Assembly: GCA_963971425.1 (NCBI GenBank)
Contig: OZ020519.1
Location: 8,944,028-9,008,027, forward strand
DNA length: 64,000 bases
Origin: Bryoerythrophyllum caledonicum
Taxonomy: Eukaryota > Streptophyta > Bryopsida > Pottiales > Pottiaceae
Direction: 5' to 3'
In this document: positions 33,691-42,000 of the stretch, piece after piece
Layout: each line of letters begins with the position of its first letter
Numbering within the stretch: the first letter of the stretch is position 1
Made by a program: the position numbers and the translations under genes
Notes under the pieces: generated by a model
The model's input: only the letters and a program-made list of their open reading frames with translations
Databases searched by the model: none
Told to the model about the DNA's origin: nothing

Positions 33691-36600
33691 TTAAGGGGGG
33701 AGGTCTTGTGTATCGGGGAGGGCTTGATTGTTTTCGATTTTGCGTTTATGTAGGAGAATGGACATGGCATATTGAATAGCAATGGTGTTAATGTTTTTAA
33801 AGGAGGTTTTAATTGTTTCAATGGGTATTTTGAAGGTATCTTCAAGAGATTTCATAGATGGGATAAACGTGGTGGCACGAGCGCCGGATGTGATTACAAT
33901 AAGGGGGTCGACCTTCCATCCGAGGGCGATGATGTCGTCAATAAGGGGTTGGTATTTATCTATTTTATTTTGGATTGTTTCCGGGGAAAATCTATCGTTG
34001 CAATACGTGAATTCAATGAATTGAATGGTGTATTCTTGGTTGATGTTATCGGGTGGTGGGTCATTATATGGTAAACCTTTAACGCAGAGGATATCCGGTT
34101 TGAGCCTAGCGTTGCAATGACATCTTTGGGTCATGCATGAGCATGGGAGTAGCCAAGGGGGGACCGTATTTTCTTGTGGATTGTTATTAAAAGTACCGGC
34201 GTTCATTAATATAAAACATCTCGATTTATTGTAGGAGGTGATTAGTTTTCGGACTTCCCATACCGCTTTATTATGTCTTTTAACAATTAGAGAGTGTATG
34301 TGGTGGTTTTGGCATTTGAGTAGGACATGGAGCCATGTGTCGGGGTCCGTTGAGGGGCATATGGGGCATGTTATGGATGGGAATCTTTCTATTCCAAAGA
34401 AGAGTTGTTTGCGAGCGTTTCCCATATATTGACCCGTACGGAATTTGATGAGGCATGTTATTTGCGAGTCTGGGATGATGGGGTTTTTCCAAAAATTTGT
34501 AGAGAGTTCATTGTCTATGTCGTTATTGTTAGTCCATTTTTCTATGTTAGGAATATTTTCTGAAATTGTGTCAAGGTTGTTGTAGAGGTCTTGTTTTTTG
34601 AGATATTTGCCCAAAAATCTAATTGGGCCTTTGTCGGGGGTATCTTCTTTGGAAGGCCAATCTTCTTTTTGAAAGTAGTATGGGGTGGCATGGGCATGTT
34701 CGTGTGGGTCTGTGGCGTTTTTGTGTGTTTTTTCTCGGCCTTCTTTTGCTAGTTTGTCTGCTTGTTCATTGCCATCAATGTTAGCATGGGCTCTTACTTT
34801 GTGGAGGGTTGTGATTTGTGTACGGTTTTGTAACATTTGGACCATTGATGTTAATATGGTTTGGTCGGGGTGGCTATTGTGAAGGGTAGGGTGTGTTATT
34901 TGAGTGTTAAGTAGGTAGAGTGCATTTATACAATCGGTGAATATATGTGCGGGTTCATCATTGTATTTTGTTGTGATGATTTGTAGTGTTTTGTGGATGG
35001 CCATGAGTTCTGCTCTGAGAATATTTTGTAGTCCATGAAGTCTTTTGGCTAGTTTAATTTCTTTGATAAAATTATATATGCCGTAGCCAGCTTTTTCTCT
35101 GCGCCAAGAGCCCGGGCTAATTTGTTCTGGTGGTTTGAAGGAGCCGTCGGTGTAATAACTGTATGTGGGGTTAAATTTTGGTGTAGTATGGATTTGGTAG
35201 TCTGGAAGAGGGGGAGGTATGACGGAGTAGTTTAATGTGTTGTTGACATAGTTTAGTTTTGACCAGTTTTTACTTTTGTTTACAGGGGTTTGTATAGGTG
35301 TTGGTGGGGCCAGTTTTGTGTATAGTCGGTGTATGCCTAGATTGTTTGTTACGGAGGTAAGTTCCGCAAGTTGTTCTAGGGAGCCAAGGGTTTGATTTTG
35401 ATGGTGGACGCATAGTATTTGTAATGTAGATGGCTCTATTCGGGGTTTTTTTAGCTCGGGTGGAATAGTAGGTTCTTCGTATGGTATTGTGTCGGCTTCG
35501 AATAGTGCAATGATATGGGAATCTGGGAATGGATTTGGATGTTGGTTGTTGTTTTGGTACCAATTACTGTTCGGTGCGATGATGATTGTTTTTGTGTTAT
35601 TTGGATCGTGTTTGGCGGCAAGTCTAGCCCAATGTATGGCTTGATCCATGTCCTTCTCGTTGTGGGGGTGGGCTATGCCATTACCGGTCCATTTGTAGTC
35701 AAAGGCCTTTCCTAGGGATCCGAATATTTTGTCTCTTTCATGCGGTGAGTAGAATTTTTTTAGTTTGGTAGAACATGTGACTGGGGAAGAGAAGTATGAT
35801 TGCTCGATATTAAAGGATGAGATCAGTGAGTCTAAAATGAGAGTGGGTATTGTGTATTGGGCATTTTTGAGGGGGTCAGTTTTTGGTATTCGGTATTTAT
35901 ACCTTTGGTAGAGCCATATTAGTTCGGTTTCAAAGGGTTGGGTCGTTGGTTCGATGTTTGTAGGAGTTTGTAATTTGGTATTATATTGATTCCATAGCCA
36001 TTGGAGTCGGGTAACGGGGATGGTGTGTAAATGTCGGCCGTTTTCTTCGAATAGATGTGCATGATTGTTATCTATTTGAATTGTGTTTGAGGATGTAAGG
36101 ATATCATTTTCGGGGTTGCATTCTGTTGTGTAGATGTTTAAGAGTGGGATAATTATGGGTGGTGTTACGGACCTTGAGTCTGAGAATTGTTCTTGGGGGT
36201 GGTGGGCAAGGATGATATCTGAGTATATTTTATTTTGGATCTTTTGGTAGTATTGTTTTAATTTTTCAATGTTATGTGTGGAGGTATTGGTGTCATGCCG
36301 TGGAAAAAGGTCTCTTTGGGGGAGCCATTTATTGTATGTATTATCATTATGTTGCCATTGGCATAGATATTTTGTGTAGGTATTTTGTATGTTATTTGTG
36401 TCTGTGTGTTGAATATGTTTATGGTTTATGATATTATTAATGGGGTATGTGGTAGGGTTTTTGGGGATGTATGTTGGGGGGCGGGGGTGGTATATATGTG
36501 GAGGGTTAGGGGGATTGGTTGGTGTGGGAATATTTCTTGGGATGATGTTATCGTTGAGGGTGATGAATGGATCTTTAAGTGTATGAGAGTATGGGTGTAT

Positions 36601-42000: not shown

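Follow-up and report, generated by a model that had tools for sequence, protein, structure and literature searches.

A probable young dual-endonuclease LINE, resembling Dualen/RandI, in the genome of Bryoerythrophyllum caledonicum

Anatomy of the element

The window analyzed here is a stretch of 64,000 nucleotides from Bryoerythrophyllum caledonicum (GenBank assembly GCA_963971425.1, contig OZ020519.1, positions 8,944,028 to 9,008,027 of the forward strand). It contains a long interspersed nuclear element (LINE) that is very likely a young, autonomous retrotransposon of the non-long terminal repeat (non-LTR) class and of the dual-endonuclease, Dualen/RandI-like kind (Table 1). An earlier note on this DNA, made by a model that was given only the letters and a list of open reading frames (ORFs), had described one 2,769-codon frame as a Dualen-like LINE polyprotein with two different endonucleases, and its claims were checked here by computation. 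The span of this frame, designated ORF2, proved exact, but the frame is to be read on the minus strand; stops abound on the plus strand in this span. ORF1 lies upstream of ORF2, the two sharing 4 bases (TTGA). The open frame of ORF1 comprises 975 codons (41997-44924), continuing beyond position 44862 into the flank, and a Pfam scan of ORF1 gave no match. By eye, a stretch near the ORF1 C terminus has the look of an RNA recognition motif. Relative to 16 copies of approximately 12.6 kb that have one common 5′ end, the window copy is 5′-truncated by approximately 1.16 kb.

Table 1. Features of the LINE and its flanks in the window (residues are those of the ORF2 frame)
Feature	Position	Strand	Basis or remark
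LINE element, window copy, 11,445 bp	33418..44862	-	Flank comparison of copies
ORF1, element-encoded part	41997..44862	-	Pro-rich N-terminal half
ORF2 open frame, 2,769 codons from TTG	33691..42000	-	
Possible true ORF2 start Met386 (leader, 386-419) and 2A/StopGo motif GDIETNPGP (420-428)	40717..40845	-	
Helical region just after 2A, residues 433-612	40165..40704	-	Predicted local distance difference (pLDDT) ~90 over first 110 residues
AP-type endonuclease, residues 636-900	39301..40095	-	
Reverse transcriptase, residues 1264-1525	37426..38211	-	YADD at 37663-37674
Chromodomain-like stretch, residues 1856-1899	36304..36435	-	Weak: E 0.087, below Pfam cut-off
PCIF1/CAPAM-like methyltransferase fold, residues 1990-2219	35344..36033	-	Pfam, predicted structure, profile
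RNase H, residues 2281-2422	34735..35160	-	Pfam and predicted structure
R2-type zinc-finger/linker/restriction-like endonuclease module, residues 2461-2760	33721..34620	-	
CCHC zinc finger C-x2-C-x9-H-x4-C, residues 2545-2563	34312..34368	-	
3′ end	33418..33452	-	25-nt hairpin CGCCGGTTCCCTTCGGGAACCGGCG (33428-33452), then short TTCTTCTCTC tail (33418-33427)
Left copy of 22.9-kb direct repeat	10493..33417	.	Adjoins LINE 3′ end
Right copy of 22.9-kb direct repeat	44863..64000	.	Adjoins LINE 5′ end; runs 3.8 kb past the window, to 67808

Two conserved endonucleases in one polyprotein

All the motifs that had been named are present in ORF2: QETK, GDFN, and NSDHSP of the AP-type endonuclease (APE), YADD of the reverse transcriptase (RT), YTDGS, RAELMAI, and FTDC of RNase H, the CCHC finger (CPIC..HVLLKC), and the C-terminal KPD..IEFT..KIDKY. 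The Pfam scan of ORF2 gave RT (6.7e-26), RNase H (1.5e-11), and PCIF1_WW (7.2e-10, over its cut-off); an APE entry was missing for the window protein and appeared in its relatives. Both nuclease folds were matched in predicted structures, including the C-terminal restriction-like endonuclease (RLE) on which the earlier note had staked its reading; the fold matches listed leave the RT and the helical region uncovered. Together with the Pfam scores of RT and RNase H, the two nuclease folds rule out chance as the source of the motifs. The chromodomain-like stretch was unlisted at E 0.1 in ten relatives scanned, few of which cover it.

The catalytic residues of both nucleases are kept in the relatives, where only aligned rows having a letter at the given column were counted. 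The catalytic set of the RLE (KPD..IEF..KIDKY, positions 33952-34101) is complete in all 18 rows having both motif ends, the window included; among rows with only part of the motif, one row has R at the Glu column and one has S and L at the two Lys columns. Conservation in the APE is similarly high (Glu in 51 of 53 rows, Asp in 60/61, Asn in 60/61, the Asp of SDH in 53/57, and His in 56/57), and the Glu and second Asp of RNase H are kept in 44/46 and 43/45 rows, respectively. From dN/dS ratios, both nuclease domains are under purifying selection. A search with residues 1860-2769 under a whole-protein length rule returned no match at E 0.001 among 2,957 candidates, and 64 matches were obtained when the C terminus was searched as a separate piece. 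In viral contigs, to which the scan was confined, no locus encoding such a protein was found.

Recent copies and their insertion footprints

The genome was searched for further copies, as the earlier note had proposed, and the 18 best showed a rounded identity of 100% across 500 RT residues, with a 2,809-codon frame kept in 15 of them. Comparisons between copies were made with 16, excluding the window copy and the unplaced contig C201. The common 5′ end is found in all 16, and their mean difference is 1.4 in 1,355 bp (120 pairs). Each ends in the 25-nt hairpin, with one base changed in one copy, followed by a pyrimidine (CTTCTCT-like) tail of varying length; no poly(A) is present in any of the 16 or in the window copy. 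The tails are often too short to reveal a repeat, and one passes into a TA repeat. Since the same 18 places ranked at the top with a probe located 0.6 to 2.1 kb from the 3′ end (40 of 4,560 candidates scored), truncation is rare among recent copies, although any copy too short to contain the probe would escape this search. The flanks of one copy (C4:7584688-7596132), inspected by eye, place it in antisense orientation within a second copy of the element.

Target site duplications (TSDs) of 10 to 13 bp were identified in 13 of the 16 copies, up to 31 bp ahead of the common start. Of the remaining three, one is embedded in a run of TA, and the other two show repeats of 11 and 13 bp located 74 and 244 bases ahead of the start. 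This count leaves out four flank pairs from the 97% group, in which the anchor was absent. Dispersed insertion with TSDs of this length is more like that of APE LINEs than that of site-specific RLE LINEs. Entire LINE clades carry APE only or RLE only, according to passages of PMC4640811. Both points would suit an element in which only one nuclease is used, the RLE (or the APE) being a structural DNA-binding relic and the other making both cuts. The conservation of both catalytic sets and the purifying selection on both domains argue against such a relic, and we regard it as somewhat unlikely.

A 22.9-kb direct repeat flanking the window copy

The window copy lies between two direct repeats whose boundaries coincide exactly with the 5′ and 3′ ends of the LINE. 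They are 99.87% identical, differing by 8 mismatches and one 21-bp indel. The 3′ junction of the window copy looks normal; at the 5′ junction, the LINE meets a site 22.9 kb distant. The repeats are apparently a giant TSD or a LINE-bridged tandem duplication, a single insertion having duplicated 23 kb of host DNA. The same geometry has been described in cancer, where a single L1 insertion bridges the two units of a direct tandem duplication (passages of PMC7058536); that duplication spans 22.6 Mb, whereas the present one spans 22.9 kb, was found in a genome assembly, and involves a dual-endonuclease LINE. Contig C201 consists of exactly one 34,391-bp LINE-plus-repeat unit, circularly permuted. 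It differs from the window at four positions in the LINE part and carries a mixture of the variants of both repeats, matching neither throughout; it may be a further array unit, an extrachromosomal circle, or an assembly product.

An assembler can emit such a circularly permuted unit for a repeat that it cannot place, so that the 22.9-kb repeat could be an assembly artefact, or else a tandem duplication that existed before the insertion and is independent of it. This is unlikely, given that the repeat boundaries fall exactly at the LINE ends, that the two repeats differ from each other, and that C201 resembles a further unit. Ribosomal DNA (rDNA) as the cause of the 34-kb repeat was rejected, as no Rfam match at the gathering threshold and no tRNA were found in the window. 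Elsewhere in the window, remnants of Copia LTR retrotransposons lie at 4246-8535 and 17831-21384 (plus strand; the second named by eye), and a PIF/Harbinger-like transposase remnant was recognized by eye at approximately 30600-31900 (minus strand).

Relationship to Dualen/RandI, R2, and L1

Several features that characterize Dualen/RandI elements are found here: an APE upstream of the RT, a C-terminal RLE with a CCHC finger, RNase H, and a 3′ simple sequence that is not poly(A). In passages of PMC4640811, APE, RLE, and RNase H are combined in one element in Dualen/RandI of green algae, and in passages of PMC3747384 the tails of RandI are simple sequences rather than poly(A) in 8/8 families, such as (ATT)n and (CTATTT)n. 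The Dualen-like reading in the earlier note is therefore supported, and the kinship is argued from this architecture and the non-poly(A) tail. One possible difference is that a PCIF1-like domain and a 2A motif, both present in the window element, go unmentioned for Dualen/RandI in literature passages outside the primary Dualen paper, which may reflect an annotation gap.

The RT tree comprised 30 rows, with 8 close relatives chosen; from 31 distant RT rows, 10 segments no longer than 220 residues were left out, as were 4 others, removed by hand as ill-delimited. The close relatives were drawn from ENA and JGI contigs, including one filed under an archaeal metagenome-assembled genome, which is probably stray eukaryotic DNA. 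The family forms a single clade (100/100), L1 a separate one (100/99), and a branch with 95/93 support sets the ten-row APE clade apart. The RT thus falls outside L1 and the other APE-LINE clade, and an RLE is present, in contrast to LINEs of the L1 or APE-only type. R2 elements are specific for 28S rDNA. Unlike R2, in which insertion is site specific and the RLE is the sole nuclease, the window element also has an APE and RNase H, and its 16 copies are dispersed, with differing flanks.

By sequence, the best solved-structure match of the RT is R2 (4e-31), and at E 0.01 the window protein matched no L1 row; for the relative P0067, the values are 4e-30 against R2 and 1e-17 against L1. A clade uniting the family and R2 was not rejected in the approximately unbiased test (p-AU 0.30). 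These values would suit an R2/NeSL-type RLE LINE that captured an APE independently and is no Dualen/RandI relative, a history that the joint presence of APE, RLE, RNase H, and a non-poly(A) tail, as published for Dualen/RandI, makes quite improbable. The reading as an ordinary L1/CR1 LINE whose PD..K motif arose by chance is ruled out by the fold match, motif conservation, and dN/dS.

A 2A motif and apparent exchange of 5′ modules

The D-x-E-x-NPGP core of the 2A motif was found in 24 of 161 proteins compared (the window and 23 others), many of the rest being fragments short of the site; in most of the motif-bearing proteins a similar stretch follows, as judged by eye. Odon et al. (2013), by its title, reportedly deals with 2A peptides in APE-type LINEs. 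There, as in the window, D-x-E-x-NPGP stands ahead of the ORF2 enzymes; the window motif differs in belonging to a dual-nuclease element. As Met386 is the last in-frame Met ahead of the motif, translation of ORF2 probably begins at about this residue, a placement we consider tentative.

Copies of a sub-family on contigs C11 and C9 share sequence with the window element only from about the 2A motif on, and the C9 copy carries a long (CAA)n-like repeat in frame ahead of the 2A motif of ORF2, together with an imperfect second 2A motif. The main DNA match to the copies C11b and C9 starts only at approximately residue 412. A weak match of residues ~370 to 450 to the upstream imperfect second 2A region was also seen, and blastn at E 1e-20 found nothing for the first ~370 codons in the two sub-family copies examined; these codons may lie outside the nuclease protein. 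Synonymous divergence is 0.06 to 0.23 beyond residue 650 and approximately 1.0 just before it. This jump appears to be a sign that the sub-families exchanged 5′ modules. Both the window element and C9 have ORF2 in the −1 frame, overlapping by approximately 115 to 120 nt, and no slippery heptamer for a programmed −1 frameshift between ORF1 and ORF2 was found.

A PCIF1-like domain without the catalytic Asn

The predicted structure of ORF2 contains the methyltransferase core fold of PCIF1/CAPAM, the cap-specific adenosine methyltransferase. Unlike that enzyme, the window domain sits inside a LINE polyprotein and has HPHN in place of NPPF (35659-35670); at the column of the catalytic Asn of NPPF, none of the 50 lettered rows has Asn. 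The profile that matched PCIF1 was built from trimmed rows; with the window sequence alone as the query, human PCIF1 was found at E 0.49, ranked under designed tetratricopeptide repeat proteins. Because the catalytic Asn is lost, the likeliest role of the domain is to bind RNA and not to methylate it; its ligand could be the capped 5′ end of the mRNA of the element itself. A fuller version, which we hold to be distinctly doubtful, is that a cap-adenosine methyltransferase of the PCIF1 type was acquired by the LINE, was catalytically disabled, and now serves it as a reader of the cap or 5′ end of the LINE mRNA, favoring complete copying. Consistent with this idea, of 17 independent recent insertions that were compared, 16 extend to the common 5′ end, the sole truncated copy being the one joined to the 22.9-kb flank duplication. 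A second family bearing PF12237, with an open frame of 3,087 codons, occurs in dozens of places with identical scores (e.g., C8:15561129 and C1:3626835) and is apparently very young too.

Proposed mechanism and significance

From the anatomy, predicted folds, conservation, selection, and copy structure described above, we infer the following mechanism. The StopGo 2A peptide would release a short leader from an enzyme of approximately 2,340 residues, predicted to comprise, in order, the helical region, APE, RT, chromo-like stretch, pseudo-PCIF1 domain, RNase H, CCHC finger, and RLE. One nuclease, most likely the APE, would nick dispersed targets, and the RT would copy the RNA from the nick by target priming, beginning in the hairpin/pyrimidine 3′ end. 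The other nuclease, for which the R2-type RLE module is the likeliest candidate, would act on the opposite strand at a measured distance of approximately 12 bp, giving the narrow TSD range, and RNase H would remove the RNA.

Several points weigh against this account or parts of it. Which nuclease serves which strand is something we infer, and nuclease activity is predicted from models. The first Asp of RNase H is retained in only 40 of 53 lettered rows, and in one of three comparisons dN/dS of this domain was 1.1 (1 synonymous and 4 nonsynonymous changes), with 0.23 and 0.09 in the others. For residues 433-1620, the best Foldseek match was human L1 ORF2p and not R2 (E 1.4e-13, TM score 0.19), which is expected if the APE and RT, both found in L1 ORF2p, are matched together. 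The RT tree does not settle the order of the family relative to R2 and L1 and has no Dualen RT among its rows. Met386 is chosen simply as the last in-frame Met before 2A; with 29 codons and dS at 2.5 to 3.0 (saturated), or 0.6 between the two sub-family copies, the leader is too small and too divergent for selection to be assessed. Finally, the role given to the PCIF1-like domain is drawn from its fold only.

To our knowledge, there is no settled reason for any element to retain both nucleases. The position of Dualen has been interpreted as a sign that APE-type LINEs originated via replacement of the RLE (passages of PMC4640811). The pseudo-PCIF1 domain would tie LINE biology to the recognition of the mRNA cap. 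With a young multicopy family in a chromosome-scale genome, both nucleases conserved, and insertion footprints that can be read, the division of labor between the two becomes testable.
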